Source: Haloplanus salinarum
GTDB taxonomy: Archaea; Halobacteriota; Halobacteria; Halobacteriales; Haloferacaceae
Length of the DNA stretch: 64,000 nt
Assembly: GCF_024498175.1 (NCBI RefSeq)
Contig: NZ_CP101823.1
Location: forward strand, 2,672,987-2,736,986
Direction: 5' to 3'
A model generated the notes under the pieces. It saw only the letters and a list, made by a program, of their open reading frames with translations, did not search any database and was not told where the DNA came from. Both the position numbers and the translations under genes were made by a program. Shown one piece after another: positions 19,597 through 33,517 of this stretch (positions are counted from its first letter, which is position 1; each line of letters opens with the position of its first letter).

Positions 19597-19659
19597 CGGC
19601 GTCGAACCGCCACGGGCGGCACCGTGGCGTTGATGATCCTTCCTCCCGAGCTATCGAGC

Positions 19660-21945
19660 GTGAGCGAGACGCCGACCATCCACGCACTGGACGACGCGAC
19701 GGTCCGACGCATCGCCGCCGGCGAGGTGGTCGAGCGTCCGGCGAGCGTCGTGAAGGAACTGCTCGAGAACAGTCTCGACGCCGACGCCTCGCGCGTGACC
19801 GTCGCCGTCGAGGGCGGGGGCGTCGAGGGGATCCGCGTCCGCGACGACGGGGTCGGCATGACCGCCGCGGACTTGGAGCGGGCGGTCGAGGAGCACACGA
19901 CCAGCAAGATCACGGGGGGCGACGACCTCGACCAAGTGGGCACGCTGGGGTTCCGCGGTGAGGCGCTCCACACCATCGGCGCGGTGTCGCGGCTGACGAT
20001 CCGGTCGCGCCCCCGGTCGGGCGGGCGCGGGCACGAACTCACCGTCGAGGGCGGGACGGCCGGCGAGGTCACCCCCTCGGGCTGTCCGCCGGGAACGGTC
20101 GTCGAGGTCGCGGACCTGTTCTACAACACGCCGGCCCGGCGGAAGTTCCTCAAGACCGAGACGACGGAGTTCGACCACGTCAACCGCGTGGTGACCCAGT
20201 ACGCCCTCGCCAACCCCGACGTGGCGACGACGCTCGAACACGACGGCCGCGAGGTGTTCGCCACCGAGGGTGCGGGCGACCTCGAATCGACCGTCCTCGC
20301 GGTCTACGGCCGCGAGGTGGCGTCGTCGATGATCGAGGTCGACGGGGGGCGACCGGAACCCGGCGCCGACCCGTCGGGCCCCGTCGAATCGGTGTCGGGG
20401 CTCGTGAGCCACCCCGAGACGACGCGGGCGGGCCGGGAGTACCTCTCGACGTTCGTCAACGGCCGCTACGTCACCGCGGGGACGCTCCGCGAGGCCGTCC
20501 TCGACGCCTACGGCGGCCAACTGGCGACCGACCGCTACCCCTTCGCCGTCCTCTTCGTCGAGGTGCCGCCCGACGCCGTTGACGTGAACGTCCACCCCCG
20601 CAAGATGGAGGTGCGGTTCGACGACGAGGCGGCCGTCCGCGAGGCGGTGACGGCGGCCGTCCGCGAGGCGCTGCTTGAGGAGGGGCTGGTCCGGACGGCG
20701 GCCCCGCGTGGGCGCTCGGCGCCCGCGGAGACCGAAATCGACCCGTCGTCGCCGGATCGGGAGGTGGCCGGGGGGGAGGCGGCCCCCGATTCCGATTCCG
20801 ATTCCGATTCCGATTCCGATTCCGATTCCGATTCCGATTCCGATTCCGATTCCGATTCCGATTCCGATTCCGATTCCGATTCCGATTCCGATTCCGATTC
20901 CGATTCCGATTCCGATTCCGATTCCGATTCCGATTCCGATTCCCACGCCGGTGCCGGCTCGGACTCCGACGACGGATCCGACCGGGACACGAGCCCGACG
21001 CCCGACCGCGACGCGGGGACCGCCGCCGTCCCGACGGGGACCGAACCGGCGGACGAGCGCGGGTCCGACGACGTGGGGAGCGACACCCGCTCGGACGGGA
21101 CGACCCGAGCGTCGACCCTCGACGAGGCGACGGCGGACGGCGCGGTCGGGACCGGCGGGAGCGAGGAGGTGACGCCGGAACCCGTCGGTGACGACGGTGT
21201 CGAGGGAACGGCCAGCGACCCCGCCGAGCCGGCGGCCGACCGCGACGCGGACGCCGACGGCCCGTGGCACGCCGGCGGGATCCGTCCGCCGAGCGAGCAG
21301 CGGACGCTCGACGGCGACCGGGCGGCGCCGGACCGCGACTTCGAGCGCCTGCCCGCAATGTGCGTCCTCGGACAGTACGACGACACGTACCTGGTCGCGG
21401 AGACGGCCGACGGCCTGGCCCTGATCGACCAGCACGCGGCCGACGAGCGGGTGAACTACGAGCGGCTTCGGGCACAGTTCGACGGCGACACGACCACCCA
21501 GGTGTTGGCGGAGCCGGTCGAAATCGAACTGACCGCCCGCGAAGCGGCGGTGTTCGACACCTACGAAGACGCCGTCGCTCAGTTGGGATTCCACGCCGAC
21601 CGCGTCGACGACCGAACCGTCCGGGTGACGACCGTGCCCACCGTCGTCGCCGACTCGGTCGGCCCGACGCTGATCCGCGACGTTCTGACCAACTTCGTCG
21701 ACGACGAGCGGGATGCCGAAGGGACGATCGACGAAGTGGCCGACGACCTGCTGGCGGATATGGCGTGTCACCCGTCGATCACGGGCAACACGTCGCTGAC
21801 GGAGGGGTCGGTGTTCGACCTCCTGTCGGCGCTCGACGACTGTGACAACCCGTGGGCGTGCCCGCACGGCCGGCCGGTGGTGATCTCGTTCGACCACGAC
21901 GAGATCAGCGACCGGTTCGAGCGGGACTACCCGGGACACGACTGA
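19660..21945 (+). CDS. mutL: DNA mismatch repair protein MutL with a long Asp-Ser repeat linker
   Basis: The preferred start is GTG 19660 ([12 protein letters not shown]), which matches usual archaeal and bacterial MutL N-termini; ATG 19633 is possible. This gives 761 residues. The GHKL ATPase has ENSLDA (about 36-41), DDGVGM and GFRGEAL. The linker holds 26 Asp-Ser repeats (about 377-428) and further acidic low-complexity sequence. The C-terminal domain carries [12 protein letters not shown], which fits the DQHAx2Ex4E metal-binding endonuclease motif, plus ACHPSI and CPHGRP. It is therefore predicted to nick DNA in mismatch repair together with MutS. Confidence 0.96.
20788..20943. repeat. 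Perfect GATTCC hexanucleotide repeat, 26 copies
   Basis: A 156-bp run of GATTCC without a single interruption encodes 26 Asp-Ser pairs in the MutL linker. Neighbouring Asp-Ser codons outside the run (GACTCCGAC) differ, so codon identity inside is not explained by protein selection and indicates slippage-driven expansion. A change in copy number keeps the frame. Confidence 0.97.
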
Positions 21946-22155
21946 TCACGGGAAGGTTCGGCAGTTGAGCAGTCACCGCGACATCGGTCCCCAGGATCGT
22001 CGTAGAAGGGATCGAGCCGCGAAGCGAGTGAGTTTCGCCGCCGGATCGGACGCCGTCGCAACGAACGGGGTCACGAGGGCGGTCCCGTTCGCCCGCGAAC
22101 CACGCCGTCCGTGGGTGACGGCGAGACGGTCGGCTAGGAACCGAACCCGCGTACC

Positions 22156-22164
22156 ATATTTATA
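22156..22164 (+). promoter_or_regulatory. TATA box of receptor kinase A
   Basis: ATATTTATA ends 26 nt before the ATG at 22191, the classic spacing for a leaderless haloarchaeal transcript. The 245 bp between mutL and this gene holds no other feature I can support. Confidence 0.6.
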
Positions 22165-22190
22165 CATGTGGCTAACAAGTCACGATCGAA

Positions 22191-24518
22191 ATGTGTGCGT
22201 GCTGGACTCGACGGGAGGCTCTGCGGATGGCGGGCTGTACGGCCGTAGGAGGGCTGTTGCTATCGCCGGGTACTGCGAGTGGACAGAGCGGTGAATCGTG
22301 GCCGGAATCGGGGTACGACGACGGGAATACGGACTACGCTCCCGAGAATACGGGCCCGGTGGCGAACGTGGAAGAAGCGTGGCGTCACGAACTGGATTCC
22401 ACCCCCGGCGACATAACGGTCGCGAACGGGAACGTCTACGTGAGCAGTCTGCAACTCGACAACCCGCTATACTCGCTGGAAGCTACTTCCGGTGCCGAAC
22501 GTTGGACTGCCCAGGGTAACGACGTTGAGATAGCGGACGGCTCCATCTACACACACGACGAGAGAAACGTGCTCGCGTTGAATCCGGGCGATGGGACCGA
22601 GCGATGGCGGTCGGAGCGTACGTTTTCGGACGTCGATATCGGTCCCCCGTCGATCGCGGACGACCAAATATTCGCCGTATCGTACGACACTGGAAACGAA
22701 ACCAGTGGTGTACACGCATTAGGGATCGACAGTGGAGCCGAACGATGGCGTTTCGAGGGGAAGGGAAGAGTTATCGCCCATCCAGCGATAGGAGCCGATT
22801 CGGTGTTCGTAGGGACGAACAGCAATTATCTCTACGCGATCCGGAGGAGCGATGGGACCGAGCGGTGGCGGTTCCGTACCCAGAGCATGGTCCTATCAAC
22901 GGTTCTATCCGACGGGGTCGTGTACTTCGGCGGCGACGAGTACGTGTATGCCGTCGATGCCGCCACCGGGAGCGAGCGCTGGCGGTTCCAAGCGGGAACG
23001 CCGTCTACGGGGTCAACACCGACGGCGTCGGTACCCACGATAGTCGCCGAGGATACCGTATACGCCCGAGGTGACGATACCATCTACGCGTTGAACACGA
23101 CCGACGGTACGGAGCGATGGCGGATCGAAAGTGGGGGTACGGCAATTGCGATGGTCGGGGACGTGATCTATGCGTACGACGACCGTGGGCTCTATGCGCT
23201 GGATTCGGATGACAGAAGCGAACGATGGCGCGTTCAGCTGGACGATGGATTGGCAGGGTTCGCGGTGGCCAACGGAACGATCTATGCCGGAAGTCGGAAC
23301 GATTCCGTATATGCCCTGAGCGGTGACACGCCGAATCAGGGTCAGATGGCGTCCACGACGACGAACACGCAGGCCGACAACGGCAGTGATCTCGGAGGAG
23401 GAACGGGGAAGCCATCCCAAGGTACCGAAGGCGGGGAGGGTGGTTCGGGGGTCATGGTCCCGCTCGCGGGTGCACTCGCTGCCGGGGCGGGGGGCGGCCT
23501 CTGGTACTGGCACCGCAGTGACGACGACGGGGAGCGGAGTCAGGGTGGAGTGACCGACGACGACCGTTCGACAGCTAGCGGATCGATGGGCGAGCGGGCA
23601 CGGAGTTACGACGGCCCGGATCGGTCGTCCTCCTTAGGCGTCGCTACCCAGTTCGACCGCGCACCGGGCGAAATACCTCGCGCACCGGACGTCCCCATCG
23701 ACTACGAGGACCTCGTCGAGCGGGGGACGATCGGAACGGGCGAAGAAGCCGAAGTCGTGCGAGCTACGTACCCGACAGCGGAGGGAGACGTTGACCTCGC
23801 AGTGAAACGGCCCCGTATGAGCGGAACACTACACCAGGAGAGAGTCGAGGAGATCATGGAAAGTGCCGAGACGTGGGACAAGTTGGACGACCACGATCAC
23901 GTCGTCGGCGTCCTCGATTACGACGCGGACCCCGTTCCGTGGATCGCCATGGAGTACATGGACGGTGGGACGCTCTCCGAACGAGCGGGTGACCTCGACT
24001 TCGACCGCGCGTGCTGGGTCGCGGTGGCGATCGCCGACGGCGTCCACCACGCCCACCGAAGGGGGGTCGCTCACCTCGATCTCGTCCCCTCGAACGTACT
24101 CTTCCGATCGGTCGAGAACGCGTGGGACGTTCCAAAAGTCGGGGACTGGGGTATCGCGAAACGCCTGTTCGAACACTCGAAAAGCATCGAGACGATATCG
24201 CCACAGCACGCCGCACCCGAACAGTTCAGCGACGAGTACGGTGCGACGGACGATCTGACCGACGTATATCAACTCGGATCGATATTCTACGAGCTGTTCA
24301 CGGGGAAGCCACCGTTTACCGGCAGACCAGCTACGGTCATGGATCGCGTTCTACACGAGGAGCCGACCCCACCGAGCGAGGTGGCGGAGGTCCCCACGGA
24401 ACTCGACGACGTACTGTCGACCGCACTGTCCAAGCACAAAGACGAGCGGTACGAATCCGTTCTCCTACTGCAGCGGGCCATCCGTGACCTGTACGTCGAC
24501 CGACACGGCCAGCAGTAG
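22191..24518 (+). CDS. Receptor kinase A: Tat signal, PQQ-like propeller, membrane helix, Ser/Thr kinase
   Basis: The 775-residue protein starts with a Tat signal (WTRREALRMAG). Seven ERW-type motifs at about residues 103, 137, 184, 224, 262, 308 and 344 mark a PQQ-like beta-propeller, predicted outside the cell. After a Gly/Ser linker comes a single membrane helix (about 421-440), then a Hanks-type kinase (about 508-740) inside: Lys539 in LAVKRP, Glu588 in IAMEYMDGG, Asp630 in HLDLVPSN, Asp652 in DWG, and APEQF. Two departures stand out: HLD replaces HRD (non-RD kinase), and Val632 replaces the catalytic-loop Lys kept in its three paralogues. The Gly-rich loop GTGEEAEV also lacks the last glycine. 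It is likely a sensor; activity may be reduced. Confidence 0.85.
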   Translation: MCACWTRREALRMAGCTAVGGLLLSPGTASGQSGESWPESGYDDGNTDYAPENTGPVANVEEAWRHELDSTPGDITVANGNVYVSSLQLDNPLYSLEATSGAERWTAQGNDVEIADGSIYTHDERNVLALNPGDGTERWRSERTFSDVDIGPPSIADDQIFAVSYDTGNETSGVHALGIDSGAERWRFEGKGRVIAHPAIGADSVFVGTNSNYLYAIRRSDGTERWRFRTQSMVLSTVLSDGVVYFGGDEYVYAVDAATGSERWRFQAGTPSTGSTPTASVPTIVAEDTVYARGDDTIYALNTTDGTERWRIESGGTAIAMVGDVIYAYDDRGLYALDSDDRSERWRVQLDDGLAGFAVANGTIYAGSRNDSVYALSGDTPNQGQMASTTTNTQADNGSDLGGGTGKPSQGTEGGEGGSGVMVPLAGALAAGAGGGLWYWHRSDDDGERSQGGVTDDDRSTASGSMGERARSYDGPDRSSSLGVATQFDRAPGEIPRAPDVPIDYEDLVERGTIGTGEEAEVVRATYPTAEGDVDLAVKRPRMSGTLHQERVEEIMESAETWDKLDDHDHVVGVLDYDADPVPWIAMEYMDGGTLSERAGDLDFDRACWVAVAIADGVHHAHRRGVAHLDLVPSNVLFRSVENAWDVPKVGDWGIAKRLFEHSKSIETISPQHAAPEQFSDEYGATDDLTDVYQLGSIFYELFTGKPPFTGRPATVMDRVLHEEPTPPSEVAEVPTELDDVLSTALSKHKDERYESVLLLQRAIRDLYVDRHGQQ

Positions 24519-24549
24519 CTCCGTCGGGACAGGGGTTCAGTAGCGAACG

Positions 24550-24556
24550 ATTTATT
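24550..24556 (+). promoter_or_regulatory. TATA box of receptor kinase B
   Basis: ATTTATT lies 20 nt before the ATG at 24577, inside the 58-nt gap after kinase A. It suggests that kinase B has its own promoter and a nearly leaderless mRNA. Confidence 0.5.
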
Positions 24557-24576
24557 GAGAGACGAACACAGACGTC

Positions 24577-26904
24577 ATGTCGATGGGTCGACACTGGACG
24601 CGAAGAAAGGCGATACGGGTCGCCGGAAGCGCAGCTATCGGAGGCGGGGCACTGCTGTCGGGGGGAACGAACGGGGCCGCCGGCCAGCGCGCAGAAACGT
24701 GGACGCAGTACGGATACGACGGCGCAAATACGGGACACGCACCGGACAACACGGGGTTCACCGAAAACGTGGGGGTAGACTGGCGGTTTCAGGCGGAGCG
24801 AAGCGTGATGTCGTCGCCCGCAGTCGTCAACAACGTTCTTTACGTGGCCACCGGACCGCATCAAAACCCGGGGAACGGACACGTCTACGCGCTGGATACG
24901 GGCGCTGGGACGGAGATCTGGCGTTTCGAAACCGAAGACGAGTTCGGTGCGTTTGGCCTCTCGTCGCCGACGATCGTGGACGACAAAATAATATTGAATA
25001 ATGAAGGAAGAGTCCACGCACTCAGTCGGGACGATGGTAAGGCGCTGTGGAGCGAGTGGGTCAGTTCCAACGCACACACTTCCTCGACTGTCGTAGATGG
25101 GACCGTCTTCGTGGCGGGCGATTCCTCCGATGCGGGTCTGTACGCGCTATCGGCGAGCGATGGCACCGAGCAGTGGTTCTTCGGGACACAGGGGCGGGTG
25201 AGTACGACACCCGCAGTGGCAAACGGCACCGTGTACGTCGCGGCACGGGAGAGAGGGAGCGACGAAGCGACGGTGCATGCCATAGACACCGCGAACGGAA
25301 CCGAACGCTGGCGATTCGACGGAGCCAGCGACGCGATTCACTCCTCGCCAGCGGTGGCCGGGGATACGGTCTATTTCGGCAGTCACGATACTACCGTATA
25401 CGCCCTGAACACGGACGACGGAAGCGAACGCTGGCGATTCGAAGCAGAGCAAGAGATCTTTTCTTCGCCCGCGGTTGCGAACGGGACCGTCTACGTCGGG
25501 GCCGTCAGTCAACTCCATGCCCTGGATGCACAGGACGGAAGCGAACGCTGGCGCTTCGAGATGGGCACGTTCCGATCCTCACCGGTGGTGGTGAACGGAG
25601 TGGTGTATTTCGGCGGCACCAACGACTACGTGTACGCAGTAAACGCGAACGACGGGTCCCAACTGTGGCGGTTCGAGGCACTCAATTCGGTTTCGTCCTC
25701 TCCAGCGGTCGTGAACGGGACCGTCTACATCGGCAGCGAAGATAACAACGTGTACGCACTGACGGGCGACGCAACCTCACAGGTCGAGACGGAGAGCCGG
25801 ATCCAAACACCGACCGCGACCCAACCAGCAACCGCTTCGAGTACCGGGACCGACGGCGATGAAACCGACGAGAACGGTGTCGGTGGTGACGGACGGACGT
25901 CGAGTCGAACGCCCGAGGGAGACGGTGGTAACGGGGACCTCATCGTGCCGCTAACGGGCGTACTCGCGGGGGCTGGAGGCGGAATCTGGTACTGGCGACA
26001 CAACGGTGAGAACGGGGCCATCTGGACGCACGGTCCACTAGGGGGAACACAAAGTATGGGCCCCCCCGAACGAGTGCCGCAGGCCCCGGCAGTGGACGTT
26101 GTTTACGATGAGCTCACGGACGAGGAACCGATCGGGGCAGGAGGGAGCGCCGATGTGGTCAAAGTAACGCTACCGACATCCGAGGGCGACGTCCCCCTCG
26201 CGATCAAACGCCCACGGACGAGTAACACGCTGGAGGTTGACGAAGTCGAAACGTTGTTACGAGAGGCCGAGACGTGGGACAAACTCGACGATCACGACCA
26301 CATCGTCGGCGTGGTGGACTATGGAGCGACTCCGCTTCCCTGGATCGCCATGGAGTACATGGACGGCGGTGATCTCTCCGAGCGAACCGGCGATCTCGAG
26401 TTCGATCAGGCGGTGTGGACTGCGGAGGCGATCGCGAGGGGCGTCCGCCACGCTCACCGTCGCGGCGTCGCTCACCTCGATCTCAAGCCCGCGAACGTCC
26501 TCTTCCGGTCGATCGAGGACGCCTGGGACGTGCCGAAGGTCGCCGACTGGGGCCTTTCGAAACATCTGATCGAACGTTCGGAAACGGTCGAGGGACTGTC
26601 ACCACAGTACGCGGCACCCGAACAGTTCGATGACGACTTCGGAGTTCCCGACGACGTCACGGACGTGTACCAACTCGGAACGGTCCTGTACGAGTTGTTC
26701 ACGGGGAAGCCGCCGTTCGAGGGCCAGCCGGCGAAGGCGATGCACAGAGTGTTGAACGAACGACCGACACCACCGAGCGAGATATCGGATGTGCCCCCTG
26801 CGTTGGACGACATCCTTCTTCCCGCATTGGCCAAGGAGAAAAAAGACCGCTACGAGTCGGTTTTGCTGTTACAGAAGGCACTGCAAGAGCTACGAGACGA
26901 CTGA
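24577..26904 (+). CDS. Receptor kinase B: Tat signal, PQQ-like propeller, membrane helix, Ser/Thr kinase
   Basis: The 775-residue paralogue of kinase A is encoded 58 nt downstream on the same strand. It has a Tat signal (WTRRKAIRVAG), propeller repeats of the GSERWRFE type with SSPAV/NGTVYVG strands (about 65-395), a Thr/Ser/Gly linker, a membrane helix (about 454-473) and a kinase domain (about 510-765). Key residues are intact: GAGGSADV loop, Lys544, Asp635 in HLDLKPAN, Asp657 in DWG, and APEQF. HRD is HLD as in all four copies. No propeller PQQ-ligand set is obvious, so the propeller is better read as a binding or sensor module than a dehydrogenase. Codon use is visibly more AT-rich than in neighbouring core genes. 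Confidence 0.88.
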   Translation: MSMGRHWTRRKAIRVAGSAAIGGGALLSGGTNGAAGQRAETWTQYGYDGANTGHAPDNTGFTENVGVDWRFQAERSVMSSPAVVNNVLYVATGPHQNPGNGHVYALDTGAGTEIWRFETEDEFGAFGLSSPTIVDDKIILNNEGRVHALSRDDGKALWSEWVSSNAHTSSTVVDGTVFVAGDSSDAGLYALSASDGTEQWFFGTQGRVSTTPAVANGTVYVAARERGSDEATVHAIDTANGTERWRFDGASDAIHSSPAVAGDTVYFGSHDTTVYALNTDDGSERWRFEAEQEIFSSPAVANGTVYVGAVSQLHALDAQDGSERWRFEMGTFRSSPVVVNGVVYFGGTNDYVYAVNANDGSQLWRFEALNSVSSSPAVVNGTVYIGSEDNNVYALTGDATSQVETESRIQTPTATQPATASSTGTDGDETDENGVGGDGRTSSRTPEGDGGNGDLIVPLTGVLAGAGGGIWYWRHNGENGAIWTHGPLGGTQSMGPPERVPQAPAVDVVYDELTDEEPIGAGGSADVVKVTLPTSEGDVPLAIKRPRTSNTLEVDEVETLLREAETWDKLDDHDHIVGVVDYGATPLPWIAMEYMDGGDLSERTGDLEFDQAVWTAEAIARGVRHAHRRGVAHLDLKPANVLFRSIEDAWDVPKVADWGLSKHLIERSETVEGLSPQYAAPEQFDDDFGVPDDVTDVYQLGTVLYELFTGKPPFEGQPAKAMHRVLNERPTPPSEISDVPPALDDILLPALAKEKKDRYESVLLLQKALQELRDD

Positions 26905-26972
26905 GATACCGCGTCGAATAGTCGAACCGTCGGAAAACGAATCCCCGTCACGACCATCCAACACCCCCGAAG

Positions 26973-29333
26973 TCAGTGGTCCTGGTACAGTTCTTGGAGA
27001 TCGTTTCTGAGGAGGAGCGTCGACTGATATCGGTGGGATTTCTTTTTCGCCAAGGCCGTCAGTAGTACGTCGTCCAGCGCGGGAGGAACGTCGGCTATCT
27101 CGCTTGGCGGCGTTGGTGTCTCGTTCAGCACCTGGCCCATTATTTCGGTCGACGATCCTTCGAACGGTGGCCGCCCCGTGAACAGTTCATAGAGGACGGT
27201 TCCCAGCTGATACACGTCAGTAATGTCATCCGCTACACCGTATTCGTCGTCGAACTGTTCGGGAGCGGCGTACTGAGGTGAGAGGCCTTCGACGCTCTTG
27301 GAGTGCTCGAGCAGGTGTTTCGAGAGCCCCCAGTCGGCGACCTTCGGCGCGTCCCAGGCGCCATCGGTCGACCGGAAGAGGACGTTCGCGGGCTTGAGAT
27401 CGAGGTGGGCGACCCCGCGGCGGTGAGCGTGGCGGACGCCGCGGACGGTTGCGATCGCGGTCCACACTGCTTGAGCGAAGTTCAGGCGACCAGCTCTATC
27501 ACCGATATCGCCGCCGTCCATGTACTCCATGGCGATCCACGGGATCGGCTCGGCACCGTAATCAAGCACGCCGACGATATGGTCATGATCGTCGAGTTTG
27601 CTCCACGTCTCGGCCTCCCGAAGCAGCCGTTCAACCGTATCGGTGTGGAGCGTCCCGCGCATCCGAGGTTTCTTGATCGCTACTGTCACGTCCCCATCGG
27701 CGGTGGCGAGCGTCGCCTTCGTTACGTCGGCGTTACCTCCGCTGCCGATAGGTGGCCCCTCCGTCAACTCGTCGTAGGATACGGACAGGTCCGGTGCGCG
27801 GGGAACGGTATCGGGAGCGTCGGCTGGGACGTGAGTGTTCGGCGAAACCGCGTCGTCTTCGCTGTGAGTACTCGGAGGAGTAATCGTTCCAAGCACAGGG
27901 CCACTCTCAACCGAGCCACCCGATCCTGTTCCCGTTTCGGCATCGCTTCGCGCACTGCCGGCGGGACCCCCACCATCGCGGCGCCAGTACCAGAGGCCAC
28001 CCCCCGCCCCGGCGGCGAGTGCACCCGCGAGCGGGACGACGAGATCCGAGTCGTCGGCGAACCCGTCGGCGTTCGATCCGCCACCAGCATCACCCCCTCC
28101 GTCACCGGCACCACCGTTAGTGGTGACCGGCGCGGTACGGGTACGTTCGGTCGTGGGACGTGTGTTCGTGGATCTTGTTTCTGTCGACACTTGTTCCGGA
28201 GTATCCCCGGTCAGGGCGTACAGGGCGTTGTCCGAGCCGACGTAGACAGAACCGTCCACGATCGCCGGTGAATTCACCCGACCGCCCGCTCGGAAACGCC
28301 ATCGTTCGGTGCCCTCAGTCGCATCGAGTGCATAGAGATAGGTGTCTTGACTGCCGACGTACACGGTGTTGCCCGCGACGACGGGAGAGGCCACGCGGCC
28401 GCCGGTTTCGAAGCGCCACCGTTCGGCGCCACTCTCCGTATCAGCCGCGTACAGGGAGCCGCCGTCGCTCCCGAAATAAACGGTCCCGTCGGCTACCGCC
28501 GGCGATGAATAGAGACTGCCGTCGGTTTCGAAGCGCCACCGTTCGGTGCCGCCACCCGTGTCTACTGCAAAAAGAGTGTCCGCACTCCCGAAGTAGACGG
28601 TTTCCTCAACGACTGCTGGCGTGGAGCTGAACGTTAGCCCCGTCTCGAACCGCCAGATCCGGCTTCCATCCGCCGCATCCAATGCGTAAAAGTCGTCGTT
28701 CGAACCGGACTCCCCGTATGAGATATACAGGATGTCATCCGAAACCGTCGGGGCCGATCCGATGGGGCCGTCGGTTTCGAGACACCACCGTTCGGTCCCG
28801 TCACTCGTGTTCAGAGCACAGAGACGACTGCCGTTTGCGACGTAGATGGTGTCGTTCCATACCGTAAAGTTGCTCTGGGGCCGGTCGTCGACCTCAAAAC
28901 GCCAGCGTTCGCTTCCGTCGTCCGTGTTCAGAGCGAACACGTTACTATCCCCATCCAAACCAAAGACCGTTCCGTCCACCACCGCTGGTGGGGGATAAAG
29001 CGTCGGATTTTCCAGCTCGAACTGCCATCGCTCGGCACCATCGTCGGCGTCCAGTGCGTGGAAATCGCCACTGCCAACGTAGACGCTCCCGTCGACTACC
29101 GCGGGAGAGGAAGACCCTGCCCCGAACTCCCACGCGACTGATATATTGGCGACCGGTGAGGTGTTTTCGCGTGCATATCCCGTGTTCGCGGCATCGTATC
29201 CGTGCTGTGGCCACGATTCGCCGCTCTGTCCGGTGGCGATGTCGGAATCCCCCACAATCAGCGCACCCCCGAACACAGCCCCGCTGGCCGCCCGCAACGC
29301 CCCCCGCCTCGTCCATCCCGCCGAATCGGTCAT
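26973..29333 (-). CDS. Receptor kinase C: Tat signal, PQQ-like propeller, membrane helix, Ser/Thr kinase
   Basis: The gene is convergent with kinase B. ATG 29333 is preferred over GTG 29351 because a TATA element lies 24 nt upstream of it; this gives 786 residues. Numbered from this ATG, the Tat signal is WTRRGALRAASG (about 7-18), the propeller spans about 60-375, the membrane helix about 431-450, and the kinase about 520-780. Catalytic residues are present: Lys554 in VAIKKP, Asp645 in HLDLKPAN and Asp667 in DWG. The juxtamembrane linker is longer than in A or B. Its kinase domain is closest by eye to B and D. Confidence 0.88.
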   Translation of the reverse strand: MTDSAGWTRRGALRAASGAVFGGALIVGDSDIATGQSGESWPQHGYDAANTGYARENTSPVANISVAWEFGAGSSSPAVVDGSVYVGSGDFHALDADDGAERWQFELENPTLYPPPAVVDGTVFGLDGDSNVFALNTDDGSERWRFEVDDRPQSNFTVWNDTIYVANGSRLCALNTSDGTERWCLETDGPIGSAPTVSDDILYISYGESGSNDDFYALDAADGSRIWRFETGLTFSSTPAVVEETVYFGSADTLFAVDTGGGTERWRFETDGSLYSSPAVADGTVYFGSDGGSLYAADTESGAERWRFETGGRVASPVVAGNTVYVGSQDTYLYALDATEGTERWRFRAGGRVNSPAIVDGSVYVGSDNALYALTGDTPEQVSTETRSTNTRPTTERTRTAPVTTNGGAGDGGGDAGGGSNADGFADDSDLVVPLAGALAAGAGGGLWYWRRDGGGPAGSARSDAETGTGSGGSVESGPVLGTITPPSTHSEDDAVSPNTHVPADAPDTVPRAPDLSVSYDELTEGPPIGSGGNADVTKATLATADGDVTVAIKKPRMRGTLHTDTVERLLREAETWSKLDDHDHIVGVLDYGAEPIPWIAMEYMDGGDIGDRAGRLNFAQAVWTAIATVRGVRHAHRRGVAHLDLKPANVLFRSTDGAWDAPKVADWGLSKHLLEHSKSVEGLSPQYAAPEQFDDEYGVADDITDVYQLGTVLYELFTGRPPFEGSSTEIMGQVLNETPTPPSEIADVPPALDDVLLTALAKKKSHRYQSTLLLRNDLQELYQDH

Positions 29334-29356
29334 TGCCGACGTATGTGTCACCAGTG

Positions 29357-29366
29357 CATAATAAAC
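29357..29366 (-). promoter_or_regulatory. TATA box of receptor kinase C
   Basis: On the coding strand this reads GTTTATTATG, 24 nt before the ATG at 29333. It supports that start over the upstream GTG at 29351, which would sit too close to the TATA element. Confidence 0.55.
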
Positions 29367-29558
29367 GCTCCCCCGACGGCTCGGTGTCGCACCGTGGAGC
29401 CGTCCCCAGGAAGGCGAGCATCAAGGGGGCGACGATATTAGCGGCGCCCCACGGTCTGGGACACCGAACACCGTCACGAACCGGTCGTCAACGACGCGTG
29501 CGGCGCGGTCCACGTGACGGGGGCACAGCTTTTTGCGCCGGTCGGTCGAAACACGTCC

Positions 29559-30500
29559 GTGACGGATCTGGTCACCGTCGGCGACGCCACCCTTCGGTTC
29601 TCGCCGCCACGGGGCGAACGCATCGAGACGGCCGGCGACTTCGCCGCCCACGTCGGCGGCCCGGAGAGCAACGTCGCCGTCGCGGCGGCGACGCTCGGCC
29701 TCGACGCCGCGTGGCTGTCGAAGCTCCCGGACACCCCGCTCGGGCGGCGGATCGTCGGCGAACTGCGCCGCCACGGCGTCCGGACGGGCGTCGTCTGGGC
29801 GGAGTCGGGGCGGGCGTCGACGGCGTTCGTCGAGCGCGGCGGGGCGCCCGGCGCGCGGTCGGTGTCCGACCGCGAGGGCGCGGCCGTCGCCACGGCCACC
29901 GCCGAGGACCTCCCGCTCGGGGTGGTCCGGGAGGCCGACACCCTGTTCGTCAGCGGGGCCACGCCCGCCCGCTCGGAGGCGCTCTTGGAGACGACGGCGA
30001 CGCTCCTCTCGGTCGCCGGCGAGGCGGACACGACGCGGGCCTTCGACACCCGCTTCGAGGCGACGGGACTGGAGGCCGACCGGGCCCGCGACCTGTACGA
30101 CCACCTCCTCGACGCCGTGGACGTGCTGGTGATCGACGAGGCGGACGCCGAGGCGGTCTTCGGCCTCGACGGCGACGTCGTGCCCGCGGCCCACACTCTC
30201 CGGACGCGATACGACTGCACGACGGTTGTCGTCACCCGCGAGGAGGACCGTCACCCGACGGTCGGCCTCCACGGCGAGGAGATATACGAGGTGCCGCCGT
30301 TCGAGGGGGAGACCCGCGACCCGGCCGGCGTCCACGACGCGTTCGTCGGCGGGTTCCTCGCCGGGCGACGGCGCGGCGCGAACGTGAAAGAGGCGCTTCG
30401 CCAAGGGGCGGCGACGGCGGCACTCAAGCGAACCATCGTGGGGGACGTCGTCGTCGGATCGCCAGACGACGTGGCGGCGATCCGCGACGGTCGGGAGTGA
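29559..30500 (+). CDS. PfkB-family sugar kinase, probably 2-keto-3-deoxygluconate kinase type
   Basis: From GTG 29559 (MTDLVTVGDATLRFSPPRGE) the protein has 313 residues; the frame also extends to 29514 with unlikely residues. PfkB features include HVGGPESNVAVAAATLG near the N-terminus and AFDTRFEAT in the middle. The catalytic motif near the C-terminus reads AGVHDAFVGGFLAG, where most members have GAGDAF, so one glycine position is a histidine. Haloarchaeal 2-keto-3-deoxygluconate kinases of the semi-phosphorylative Entner-Doudoroff pathway look closest. Substrate is not certain. It is divergent from kinase C. Confidence 0.8.
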   Translation: MTDLVTVGDATLRFSPPRGERIETAGDFAAHVGGPESNVAVAAATLGLDAAWLSKLPDTPLGRRIVGELRRHGVRTGVVWAESGRASTAFVERGGAPGARSVSDREGAAVATATAEDLPLGVVREADTLFVSGATPARSEALLETTATLLSVAGEADTTRAFDTRFEATGLEADRARDLYDHLLDAVDVLVIDEADAEAVFGLDGDVVPAAHTLRTRYDCTTVVVTREEDRHPTVGLHGEEIYEVPPFEGETRDPAGVHDAFVGGFLAGRRRGANVKEALRQGAATAALKRTIVGDVVVGSPDDVAAIRDGRE

Positions 30501-30801
30501 TATCAAAAAGTGGCAGCAGCCGCGACCGGCCGGGACCCCGGTCGGGGAACTCGGGGCGAGGCCGGCGCGAAGCGTCGGTCGGGTCGGGGAGACGCGTTGC
30601 GGGGACCGACGCCACCGGCACACGGGGAACGTCCGGAGGGCGTCGGCATCCCAACGTACCGCCGCTTGTAACATAAATCCATCAGAGGCTTAGATGCCGA
30701 TTTCAGTCTCGGCAAGTGGGGTCCAACCAGCCAGTCCGCGGATCGGCGCCGACGACGGCATCCCGGCAGTGGCCCAACTTTATCGGCGGACAAGGCGAAT
30801 A
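30501..30801. other. Non-coding stretch left of the TnpB element
   Basis: About 300 bp between the sugar kinase and the IS left-end hairpin. It is GC-rich with several short inverted repeats at 30515-30630, then a more AT-rich patch (30666-30705). No convincing ORF, tRNA or known ncRNA consensus was found. It may contain IS left-flank debris. Confidence 0.4.
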
Positions 30802-30884
30802 CCCCGGGGCTTGACCCCGGGGATGAAGCCGACAACCCGTGACACAAACCATTAACTGAACACATCGCTAATCAAGAGACAGCG

Positions 30885-32126
30885 ATGGAACACAGTCACC
30901 GCTACCACGCTTACCCAACACAAGAGGTAGCGGAGGGACTGGAACATCATCTCGATGTTCATCGCCAACTCTACAACCACGTTCGCTGGGACTACGAGAA
31001 CAGTCCAGAAAACGACAAGCCGAGTGAGTACGCCCAGAACAACAAACTCCCCGAGTGGAAACAGCGGTGGCCTGTGTTCGGAGAACTGCACTCGAAAGCC
31101 GCGCAAGCCACCGTCGCCCGCTTCCACCGCAATCTCTCGAACCTTCGCAAGAAAAAAGAGAAGGGGTACAATGTTGGTCGGCTCAAGCGGCAAGCACCCA
31201 CCAAGTATCGAAGCGTGACGTACAACCAGTCTGGTTTCGACCTCGATGAAAAGAGGGGCCGAGACAGGTTCGCTTACGTCCGTTTCAGCAAGATTGGGTG
31301 GATCAAGATACGGTATCACCGCCCGATTCCCGACCACGCTACCATCAAGGAGGTCACGTTCAAGAAGGAGACGACCGGCGAGTGGTTCGTCTCCTTCGGC
31401 CTCGAAACCGACGACGCCGACCTACCCGAGAAACCCGCCGTGGACTCGTTGGACGCGAGCAACAGCGTCGGGATTGACCTCGGCATCCAGAACTACATCC
31501 ACATGTCTGACGGCAAGACTGTGGACTGGCTCGACCTCGAAGACGACTACGAGCGCCTTCGACGTGAGCAACGCAAACTCTCACGGAAAGAGAAAGGGTC
31601 GAGCAACTGGGAGAAACAACGCCAGGAAGTAGCTAACGTCAAGCGACACATCAGGCGGAAGGTGCTGGACTATCAGCACAAACTCACGACGTGGCTCGTC
31701 CGCGAGTACGACGCCGTATTCGTTGAGGACTTGAACGTGAAGGAGATGTTGGAGCAGTCGCATACTGCTCGGAACAAGCAGGAAGCGGCGTGGCGACAAT
31801 TCATCACGCTCCTCGAATACAAATCCGACCTGTACGGCACTCACGTCAAGCAGGTCGAAGCACGAGGCACCACGAAAGAGTGCGCGTCGTGTGGCGTGGA
31901 GACAACGAAGCCTATCTGGGTGCGGGAACACTCCTGCCCGTCGTGTGGGTTTGAGACGGATAGGGATGCGAATGCGGCGATGAACGTGTTGCAGAGAGGC
32001 TTTTCTGAGTTAGGGCTGGGATGGCCCGAAGACACGCCCGTAGAGACTGTGACCGCTACGGACACGACTCACTTCGAGTCCGTGTCTGCAAGTCACGCCG
32101 TAGAAACGGGAAGCCTCGGGGCTTGA
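30885..32126 (+). CDS. tnpB: TnpB RNA-guided nuclease of IS200/IS605 family
   Basis: The 413-residue protein has a complete RuvC-like site: Asp198 in SVGIDLGIQ, Glu281 in VFVEDLN and Asp361 in DRDANAA. It also has the zinc ribbon Cys333/Cys336/Cys351/Cys354. The N-terminal region is the usual helix-rich OrfB domain. TnpB proteins use an RNA from the element's 3' end to cut DNA next to a target-adjacent motif, favouring retention of the element. The stop codon (32124-32126) falls inside the right-end hairpin loop, so the guide-RNA scaffold must overlap the coding 3' end. Nothing suggests inactivation. Confidence 0.93.
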   Translation: MEHSHRYHAYPTQEVAEGLEHHLDVHRQLYNHVRWDYENSPENDKPSEYAQNNKLPEWKQRWPVFGELHSKAAQATVARFHRNLSNLRKKKEKGYNVGRLKRQAPTKYRSVTYNQSGFDLDEKRGRDRFAYVRFSKIGWIKIRYHRPIPDHATIKEVTFKKETTGEWFVSFGLETDDADLPEKPAVDSLDASNSVGIDLGIQNYIHMSDGKTVDWLDLEDDYERLRREQRKLSRKEKGSSNWEKQRQEVANVKRHIRRKVLDYQHKLTTWLVREYDAVFVEDLNVKEMLEQSHTARNKQEAAWRQFITLLEYKSDLYGTHVKQVEARGTTKECASCGVETTKPIWVREHSCPSCGFETDRDANAAMNVLQRGFSELGLGWPEDTPVETVTATDTTHFESVSASHAVETGSLGA

Positions 32127-32135
32127 CCCCGAGGC
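32113..32135 (+). repeat. Right-end hairpin of the TnpB element
   Basis: Perfect 9-bp arms around loop CTTGA. The tnpB stop codon TGA is part of the loop. An exact reverse-complement copy lies at 33521-33543. Confidence 0.9.
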
Positions 32136-32169
32136 GATTCACGGGGAAACCGATCCCACGGGAAGTGAG

Positions 32170-32298
32170 ATGCCGATCAGCGTCGCGTTGCAAGGAAGCG
32201 TCGGAATCGAGACGTCGGTGGCCGTCACCATCTGGGGGCTGATCGGCGTGTTGGGGCTGGTCACCGGATATCTGCTCGGCCTCACGGTCGGAGGGTAA
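32170..32298 (+). CDS. 42-residue single-helix membrane peptide upstream of kinase D
   Basis: The ATG at 32170 opens a 42-residue frame (MPISVALQGSVGIETSVAVT, then a hydrophobic IWGLIGVLGLVTGYLLGL segment) stopping at TAA 32296-32298. It is almost entirely one membrane helix. Kinase D begins only 4 nt later, and the kinase's GGAGGG Shine-Dalgarno-like site (32290-32295) lies inside this ORF, so coupled translation is likely. No family is recognised. A direct role as a membrane partner of kinase D is inferred from coupling. Confidence 0.6.
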   Translation: MPISVALQGSVGIETSVAVTIWGLIGVLGLVTGYLLGLTVGG

Positions 32299-32302
32299 AC
32301 GG

Positions 32303-33517
32303 ATGCGAACGCCGGTCACCGAGCCGGGCGTCGTCTCCCACGTGCCGGCTGTCCCGACCGTCGACGCCCCGCTACAGATGGCGCGCGTCGGCCCCGATCC
32401 CGAGACGGTCGCCCTCTACGCCGTCGTCGCCGTCGCGAGCCTCGGCCTCGGGTTCGGCGTCGGGGTCTACCGTGCGCGGCGCCGGGGGGGCGAGGACCCG
32501 TCGGCGTCGGGGCCCGAACGGGCCGGCAGCGGACCGCGAGGGTCGGCGTCGACCCCCGAACCGGGGCGCGACGCCGAATCGCAGGCGGGCGATCGGCTCG
32601 GGCAGTCACCGAGCGTGAGCGGCGGGAGAGAGGAAAGCGAGAGCGTGGCCGGAAGCGCGAACCAACCGCCCGACTCGGCCCCGCGGGCGCCCGACGTACG
32701 CGTCGATTACGACGCGTTGACCGACGAGGAGCCGATCGGCGGCGGGGGCAACGCCGACGTGACGAAGGCGACACTGCCAACGCCCGAGGGTAACGTGACG
32801 CTCGCGATCAAGCGCCCGCGGATGCAGGGGACGCTCCACGCCGACGCCGTCGAACGGATGCTCGACGAAGCGGAGACGTGGGACAAACTCGACGACCACG
32901 ACTACGTCGTCGGCGTCGTCGACTACGGCGCCGAGCCACTGCCCTGGATCGCCATGGAGTATATGGACGCCGGTCACCTCGGGGGACGGGCGGGCTCCCT
33001 CGGTTTCGATCAGGCGCTCTGGACGGCCGTGGCGATCACGAAGGGCGTACGTCACGCCCACCGTCGGGGAGTCGCCCACCTCGATCTGAAGCCGGCGAAC
33101 GTCCTCTTTCGCGAAGTGGCGGGCGCCTGGGACGTGCCGAAGGTCGCCGACTGGGGACTCTCGAAACACCTGCTCGAGCACTCCCAGAGCGTGGAGGGGC
33201 TCTCGCCGGGATACGCCGCACCCGAACAGTTCGACCGGTCCTACGGGACGACCGACGACATCACCGACATCTACCAACTCGGCGCCGTCTACTACGAACT
33301 CTTTACCGGCCGGCCGCCGTTCGAGGGCGAATCGACGCGCGTGATGCGTGCCGTCCTCGACGAGACGCCGACGCCACCGAGCGAGGTGGCGGACGTCCCC
33401 TCGGCGCTCGACGACGTCCTGCTGACCGCACTGGCCAAGGACAAAGCCGACCGCTACGACGACATCGTCTACCTCCGGGACGACCTACAGGCGCTGTTCG
33501 AGGGACGGCGAGCGTGA
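32303..33517 (+). CDS. Propeller-less membrane Ser/Thr kinase D
   Basis: The 404-residue paralogue of kinases A-C lacks both the Tat signal and the propeller. It has a short N-terminus, a membrane helix (about 36-56) followed by RARRR, an acidic/Ser-rich linker (about 62-128) and the kinase domain (about 137-400): GGGGNADV loop, Lys170, Asp261 in HLDLKPAN, Asp283 in DWG, and APEQF. Its base composition is high-GC like the core genome, unlike A and B. The stop codon lies in CGTGAACC, which is shared with the relict IS end immediately after it. It may receive its signal through the 42-residue membrane peptide encoded just upstream. Confidence 0.88.
   Translation: MRTPVTEPGVVSHVPAVPTVDAPLQMARVGPDPETVALYAVVAVASLGLGFGVGVYRARRRGGEDPSASGPERAGSGPRGSASTPEPGRDAESQAGDRLGQSPSVSGGREESESVAGSANQPPDSAPRAPDVRVDYDALTDEEPIGGGGNADVTKATLPTPEGNVTLAIKRPRMQGTLHADAVERMLDEAETWDKLDDHDYVVGVVDYGAEPLPWIAMEYMDAGHLGGRAGSLGFDQALWTAVAITKGVRHAHRRGVAHLDLKPANVLFREVAGAWDVPKVADWGLSKHLLEHSQSVEGLSPGYAAPEQFDRSYGTTDDITDIYQLGAVYYELFTGRPPFEGESTRVMRAVLDETPTPPSEVADVPSALDDVLLTALAKDKADRYDDIVYLRDDLQALFEGRRA

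Follow-up and report, generated by a model that had tools for sequence, protein, structure and literature searches.

Propeller receptor kinases of Haloplanus salinarum and their possible link to ESCRT-type membrane remodelling

Kinase genes of the window

The analysed DNA, here called the window, is a stretch of 64,000 nt from Haloplanus salinarum (NZ_CP101823.1, positions 2,672,987-2,736,986, forward strand; own genome labelled G000). It holds four genes, K1 to K4, for membrane-anchored Hanks-type kinases. An earlier note, made from the sequence alone, had assigned to three of them an exported propeller, one membrane helix and a kinase, and to the fourth only helix plus kinase. All four open reading frames were confirmed in place and in domain order, and the strand, not given in the note, was found to be minus for K3. 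The architecture thus stands, and its interpretation gains a partner: the reading that we regard as the most likely, with about an even chance of being right, is that K1-K4 are outside-in receptor kinases feeding a membrane-remodelling output of the ESCRT (endosomal sorting complex required for transport) type. The genes and the parts of K2 are as follows.

22191..24518, plus strand: K1, 775 aa; twin-arginine translocation (Tat) signal, propeller of the pyrroloquinoline quinone (PQQ)-like type, transmembrane (TM) helix and degenerate Hanks-type kinase (Pfam, motif alignment)
24577..26904, plus strand: K2, 775 aa; Tat signal, eight-bladed propeller, TM helix and intact kinase
24577..24690, plus strand: twin-arginine signal of K2, WTRRKAIRVAGSAAIGGGALLSG; K1 and K3 carry the same motif
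24763..25767, plus strand: propeller of K2, residues 63-397, eight blades (AlphaFold 2 and Foldseek)
25939..26001, plus strand: TM helix of K2, weakly hydrophobic and Gly/Ala-rich, LIVPLTGVLAGAGGGIWYW, then R/H
26104..26901, plus strand: kinase domain of K2, HLD/DWG type
26973..29333, minus strand, convergent with K2: K3, 786 aa; Tat signal, propeller, TM helix and intact kinase
32303..33517, plus strand: K4; one TM helix and intact kinase, without a sensor

K2 follows K1 after 58 bp, and the two are probably on a single transcript. For K3 an alternative GTG start exists at 29351. When the profile search proposed in the earlier note (PF13360 and PF00069) was carried out, K1-K3 returned propeller repeats (PF13360/PF01011/PF13570, E 1e-39 to 1e-69) plus kinase, and K4 matched PF00069 alone; E-values for the kinase were 1e-26 to 1e-33. 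A Gly/Ser/Thr-rich linker lies between the repeats and the hydrophobic segment in K1, K2 and K3. The motif WTRRxAxR followed by a hydrophobic stretch was present in all three, as in predicted Tat substrates, and the RR pair was invariant among the aligned propeller kinases. All catalytic residues were retained by K2, K3 and K4 (VAIK Lys, loop Asp/Lys/Asn, DFG Asp, APE), in the form of HLD and DWG variants. K1 has lost the catalytic-loop Lys (HLDLVPSN where the family has HLDLKPxN) and part of the Gly loop (GTGEEAEV versus GxGGNADV).

Propeller fold

The AlphaFold model of K2 showed eight four-stranded blades (residues 65-397, pLDDT mostly 80-95), correcting the count of about seven repeats given before, and the N-terminal first strand closed the ring by pairing with the last blade. 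The shallow alignment (6 rows) left the linker, the helix and parts of the kinase poorly modelled. In Foldseek comparisons, the propeller matched the designed protein Cake8 with a TM-score of 0.92 and BamB with about 0.8 (by target length). Both share the eight-bladed PQQ-like repeats with K2 (TMt 0.8-0.92) but are stand-alone propellers without a kinase, unlike K1-K3. BamB and YxaL, not dehydrogenases, were the nearest natural solved folds. Since BamB and designed propellers are the closest structures, it is plausible that the propeller senses rather than catalyses, as had been argued in the note from the lack of an obvious dehydrogenase active site. A PQQ-dependent dehydrogenase was rejected: scores were 39-105 bits against a cut-off of 480 (TIGR03075) and 25-63 bits against 833 (TIGR03074), the vicinal Cys pair was missing, and the K2 propeller contains no Cys. 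A search for PqqC, which bears on PQQ as a ligand, gave no match in the own genome, and the control set was equally silent.

Predicted topology

We strongly infer that the propeller is outside and the kinase inside. This arrangement is very probable because of the RR signal, the positive residues past the helix, and family members with cytosolic fusions or internal Tat-type signals: the same kinase is found fused to HSP70 or FtsZ, or N-terminal and without a signal ahead of an internal RR-hydrophobic segment. The single-pass, outside-in protein with an N-terminal Tat-exported propeller, the reverse of the AfsK order, that the earlier note had drawn would accordingly be upheld.

The membrane helices of K1-K3 are weakly hydrophobic, with Kyte-Doolittle values of 1.3-1.4 in a 19-residue window. 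Across the family, the median maximum was 1.4 for Tat-propeller members versus 2.3 for members without a Tat-exported propeller (22 versus 10; Mann-Whitney p 1e-5); two of the 22 values (L107, L119) stem from windows outside the true helix and pull the median slightly down, leaving the conclusion unchanged. Low hydrophobicity lets Tat-dependent TM domains avoid Sec insertion (PMC5449189). With an N-terminal Tat signal, a downstream TM helix and an N-out/C-in orientation, K1-K3 resemble the Tat tail-anchored membrane proteins described in PMC10924467. The proteins characterised in that study have little or nothing beyond the C-terminal helix, whereas K1-K3 have ~300 further residues including the kinase, in place of the short cytosolic tail of that class. 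K1-K3 are thus putative cases of Tat insertion of a receptor with a large cytosolic catalytic domain, and they probe a rule of membrane biology, namely whether Tat, a mover of folded domains, can insert a receptor with a large folded enzyme inside.

A kinase family with exchangeable sensors

The kinase domain was matched 16 times in the own genome of 3.45 Mb, K1-K4 included; the matches were spread over 0.39-3.05 Mb and were 45-78% identical (self-match excluded). Mean column identity of the kinase was 79% across 11 dispersed members. From Pfam and reading of the surrounding open reading frames, four further Tat-propeller receptors were found, one each in L018 and L019 and a tandem pair in L020. 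The remaining forms comprised TM plus coil (L017), a C-terminal polytopic form (L025) and a truncated kinase copy (L026). One gene (L021:6922-9690) has kept its Tat signal ahead of a propeller eroded to a stub and a strong TM segment; its sister in the kinase tree, L113 of the relative G003, has a full propeller. In L022:8643-12062 (minus strand; counterparts L109 and L123), HSP70 and a GrpE-like region are fused to the kinase. An N-terminal kinase followed by an internal RR-hydrophobic segment was seen with a cupredoxin domain (L024:7888-9480) and, in the frame-broken L023:2396-4884, with a binding-protein-like domain read by eye. The same plan of kinase, internal Tat-type signal and an outside cupredoxin, lectin-like or binding-protein-like domain is found in L115:7852-9435 and L112:7236-9224 as well as in L024 and L023. 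Relatives add polytopic N-terminal, HEAT, lectin-like and FtsZ inputs. In G003, L116:6101-8059 (minus strand) fuses a family kinase to a complete FtsZ-type GTPase (PF00091 E 2e-32, PF12327 E 3e-19). Across the family, a conserved kinase is combined with changing sensors. Its pairing with propeller, cupredoxin, binding protein, lectin, HSP70 and FtsZ amounts to a natural experiment in which inputs are exchanged and the output is kept.

In ~145 aligned kinase domains, some of which are duplicate records of one genome, the catalytic loop read HLD, without the RD arginine, in 112, and DWG replaced DFG in 131. The family is almost confined to Halobacteria: a sample of 295 from across the phylum gave just two kinase matches outside the order, both weak (E about 1e-51). 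Several differently built family kinases can lie within tens of kb of one another, forming islands (G052:C2, G070:C1, G124:C1, G353:C5, G298:C3, G048:C1).

Duplication and degenerate partners

Kinase and sensor halves of tandem pairs have diverged unequally. In the L020 pair, the kinase halves were 95.5% and the sensor halves 59% identical at the protein level, with synonymous divergence (dS) of 0.17 versus 0.55; the corresponding values for L110 were 81% versus 56% and 0.40 versus 0.79. In L119, the kinases were 92.5% identical and the sensors unrelated. The lower dS of the kinase halves points to probable gene conversion of the output domain combined with diversification of the input. Among K1-K3, identities were 62-74% for the kinases and 38-46% for the sensors, and dS was 1.1 or more.

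The earlier note had deduced local duplication from near-identical kinase blocks. The blocks are real, but they are family-wide and occur in scattered members, so that alone they do not prove it. K1-K3 do group in the kinase tree with modest support (89/87), and the case for local duplication is a moderate one. A recent duplication was rejected, as synonymous sites are near saturation and the sensors so dissimilar; the array is old or was assembled out of older copies.

A degenerate kinase beside an active propeller kinase was found for K1, L027:3127 (HLGLTPRN), L168:14498 (HLHLKPGN, VAVA) and L155:7817, and L122 joins an active and a degenerate kinase within one chain. Such pairs, tandem or fused, occur in four genera (L027, L168, L155, L122 and K1 of the window). 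Every kinase was active in the L020, L110 and L119 arrays; pairing of active with degenerate kinases is common, not a rule.

Association with ESCRT loci

When the genes flanking ~140 family members were clustered, the recurrent neighbours were a Vps4-like AAA ATPase, an ESCRT-III-like coiled protein, arCOG08177-like and arCOG09748-like proteins, a small membrane protein, a forkhead-associated (FHA)-like protein, a PP2C and an SPFH/zinc-ribbon protein. AAA, PP2C and SPFH were confirmed directly by Pfam; the ESCRT-III and arCOG labels follow gene order, size and sequence character according to PMC10936438, not a database match. The FHA-like protein was modelled as a beta-sandwich plus helices, and its ten best PDB matches were FHA domains or proteins, the first being Sulfolobus ArnA. 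Partners, for which the earlier note could offer no names, can be proposed: ESCRT-III/Vps4, the FHA-like protein, PP2C and SPFH are strong candidates.

The ESCRT locus of the own genome (L018; G000:C1, about 2.262-2.277 Mb) includes a Tat-propeller-TM-kinase gene between an SPFH gene and a membrane/coiled-coil gene. K1-K4 are ~0.43 Mb away; the L018 paralogue and members in many genomes lie in or beside ESCRT-III/Vps4 loci. In G048 and G227, representing two other genera, Tat-propeller kinases adjoin ESCRT genes. K1-K4 and the active kinases borne by the loci L018, L156 and L168, taken for this comparison instead of the Ser/Thr kinases (STKs) published in PMC10936438, fell into one 35-row clade (support 99/97). 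An FHA-like gene in the own-genome locus was considered and rejected, the BLAST match being the zinc-ribbon tail of a membrane protein. The locus ends with a bactofilin-like beta-repeat protein (L018:13189-14340), which is kept in the relatives G003 and G005.

Co-inheritance of kinases and ESCRT

In a class-wide sample of 391 Halobacteria, with the kinase family called at E 1e-60 or better, the family was present in 23 genomes, ESCRT-III in 18 and arCOG08177-like genes in 17. An ESCRT marker (ESCRT-III or arCOG08177-like) was found in 17 of the 23 kinase genomes versus 7 of the 368 others (nominal Fisher p 1e-19); by genus, the figures were 12/17 with kinase versus 1/69 without (nominal p 5e-10). 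Divergent arCOG08177-like genes were also noted in G238:C10 and in G004:C7:3175026-3175544, the latter genome being of the same genus and having neither ESCRT-III nor the kinase family.

Of 12 genomes from the genus, exactly three (G000, G003 and G005) had the kinase expansion, and the same three had ESCRT-III and a ~240-aa PP2C. G008 has a longer, different PP2C-bearing frame, and three other genomes gave remote kinase matches only (E 1e-13 to 1e-18). Synteny with G003 and/or G005 was seen for five kinase loci of the own genome, and the kinase set is for this reason judged most likely ancestral. At two loci (ftsY region tree 100/100; oxidoreductase 96%), the genome closest to that of the window species is G006, which lacks the kinase expansion, ESCRT-III and the ~240-aa PP2C altogether. 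Its HSP70-kinase gene is missing between flanks that are 90-91% identical and now abut, and K4 is missing, together with the neighbouring transposase gene, between pfkB and the next gene. Physical linkage cannot account for the joint absence of kinases and ESCRT, because the kinases are scattered over the chromosome. This joint gain and loss suggests that the receptors control ESCRT.

K4 is the copy of the window locus that is syntenic in two relatives, whereas K1-K3 were missing from G003, G005 and G006; in these genomes mutL lies next to pfkB, at a distance of about 41 bp in the sister G006. In this comparison, only the window species has the K1-K3 array.

Proposed mechanism and its alternatives

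The propeller would be made and folded in the cytoplasm and then exported by Tat through the N-terminal RR signal, until the weakly hydrophobic Gly/Ala helix halts export, with the propeller then outside the cell and the kinase still in the cytoplasm. Receptor pairing may change when a ligand or a surface protein binds; the small-xxx-small motifs of the TM helix would favour dimer formation, and a degenerate kinase such as K1 may be one partner in some of the dimers. ESCRT-associated proteins would be phosphorylated by the active kinase and could be reset by the small PP2C, and in many relatives the FHA-like adaptor might read the phosphate. The presumed outcome is membrane remodelling, that is, vesicles or envelope shape. 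Only tentatively, and accepting that it may well be wrong, we extend this scheme to a genome-wide network of roughly a dozen receptors, inserted by Tat or anchored in another way, with exchangeable sensors, one ESCRT-III/Vps4 output, a dedicated PP2C, an FHA reader in relatives, a large cytosolic catalytic domain inserted by Tat, and active-kinase/pseudokinase pairs. If true, this would be a case outside eukaryotes of phospho-signalling that connects the cell surface with membrane remodelling by ESCRT. Control of ESCRT by the receptors would address both the inputs of archaeal Ser/Thr receptor kinases and the role of haloarchaeal ESCRT.

Several observations weigh against an ESCRT output. The association is overstated, since the Fisher tests take no account of phylogeny and the ESCRT models were derived from kinase-linked loci. 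Six kinase-bearing genomes have neither ESCRT marker, although in two of them the kinase has SPFH and FHA-like genes as neighbours. The ESCRT locus of G003 and G005 is syntenic with L018 but kinase-free, and the link there is co-inheritance only. The own-genome locus has a membrane/zinc-ribbon protein in place of the FHA-like gene of relatives, and Foldseek E-values for the FHA-like protein were 0.004 to 0.02. The weak TM helix, moreover, might in principle permit export of the whole protein or its retention inside.

The proteins might instead resemble RqkA of Deinococcus or AfsK of Streptomyces and act as general receptor kinases for stress or metabolites, with broad targets in division, repair and metabolism and an ESCRT link due to island hitchhiking. 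AfsK is indeed the best NCBIfam model for the propeller part, PQQ stimulates RqkA, a kinase that has PQQ-interaction motifs and FtsZ and DivIVA among its substrates (PMC11007091), and the present sensors are very diverse, one member being fused to FtsZ. Hitchhiking leaves unexplained, however, that G006 lost, along with ESCRT and PP2C, kinase loci that were dispersed and syntenic; the PqqC search was silent in the own genome and in the controls alike. We consider this explanation unlikely without being far-fetched. It is rather improbable that the propellers are adhesion or assembly scaffolds in the style of BamB or YxaL, placing the kinase at S-layer or envelope complexes without a diffusible ligand. 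The nearest natural folds and the rapid divergence of tandem-copy propellers (38-59% identity) beside kept kinases would agree with such a role, but it is compatible with receptors acting on ESCRT, and these results do not tell small ligands and protein partners apart.

Antiviral defence, in which island-forming kinases sense infection at the envelope and act via ESCRT or cell shut-down, would also be in line with the patchy distribution, with gain and loss that leave clean sites, and with the dense multi-kinase clusters of relatives. PADLOC kinase models did match, with E down to 1e-46, but only in the generic kinase domain and with many different kinase models as alternatives; for the anti-phage kinases PD-T4-6, MAD6 and PglW, the kinase part alone matched and no system partners were seen. 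As no nuclease, methylase or other effector partner was present in the neighbourhoods read, defence appears quite improbable. Least probable is a decaying cluster with K1 and K4 as remnants and K2 and K3 as its only functional genes. The degenerate motifs of K1, the truncated L026, the frame-broken L023 and the eroded propeller of L021 would be in keeping with decay; yet K4, like K2 and K3, retains all catalytic residues, its synteny is kept in two relatives, and tandem arrays in other genera repeatedly include degenerate partners.

Relation to known systems

In 2024, archaeal ESCRT loci were reported to contain kinases and phosphatases, and phosphorylation was proposed to be key (Makarova et al., PMC10936438). 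The main and Halo_FHA loci described there share with those studied here Vps4, ESCRT-III, arCOG08177-like and arCOG09748-like proteins, an FHA-like protein, PP2C and a membrane-associated STK. The published STKs have an N-terminal TM segment, Ig (immunoglobulin)-like repeats and a C-terminal PCI-like domain, whereas the present receptors have a Tat-exported propeller N-terminal to the TM helix and most copies lie outside the ESCRT locus; Pfam detected neither Ig-like repeats nor a C-terminal PCI-like domain in K1-K4, which end with the kinase. The family, put forward in the earlier note as a candidate undescribed one, is therefore new only in part: its kinases belong with the STKs noted in ESCRT loci, and the Tat-propeller receptor form was not found published. 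In the open-access literature, where absence is weak evidence, there was no account of Tat-exported N-terminal propeller receptors, dispersed expansion or coordinated loss, nor, for this kinase family, of a kinase-FtsZ fusion or of receptor/pseudokinase pairing.

Propeller kinases of bacteria are known that carry the propeller C-terminally, and a 2005 survey listed PQQ-repeat kinases in Deinococcus and Streptomyces (PMC1262709). RqkA (DR2518), the Deinococcus quinoprotein Ser/Thr kinase with PQQ-interaction motifs and targets including FtsZ and DivIVA (PMC11007091), is likened to K1-K3 by description, not sequence; it is bacterial, PQQ-stimulated and without an ESCRT link. AfsK (NCBIfam NF053615), like K1-K3, joins a PQQ-like propeller to a Hanks-type kinase, but its kinase is N-terminal and its propeller C-terminal, and NF053615 scored 147-237 bits against a cut-off of 1300. 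The PASTA kinases PknB/StkP are also single-pass receptor kinases and gave the nearest solved kinase domains (3f69, E 4e-30). They carry the kinase N-terminally and the PASTA sensor C-terminally, with HRD/DFG rather than HLD/DWG motifs.

Neighbouring genes

21941..29526, strand not assigned: segment holding K1-K3, between mutL and pfkB
29514..30500, plus strand: pfkB-like sugar kinase, located between K3 and K4 and kept in synteny in relatives

The pfkB-like gene is a locus marker outside the kinase system. Between it and K4 lies a TnpB-like transposase gene (window 30885-32126), which is missing along with K4 in G006. The mutL gene (window 19624-21945) contains a long Ser-Asp dipeptide run, a coding short tandem repeat that leaves other frames open.

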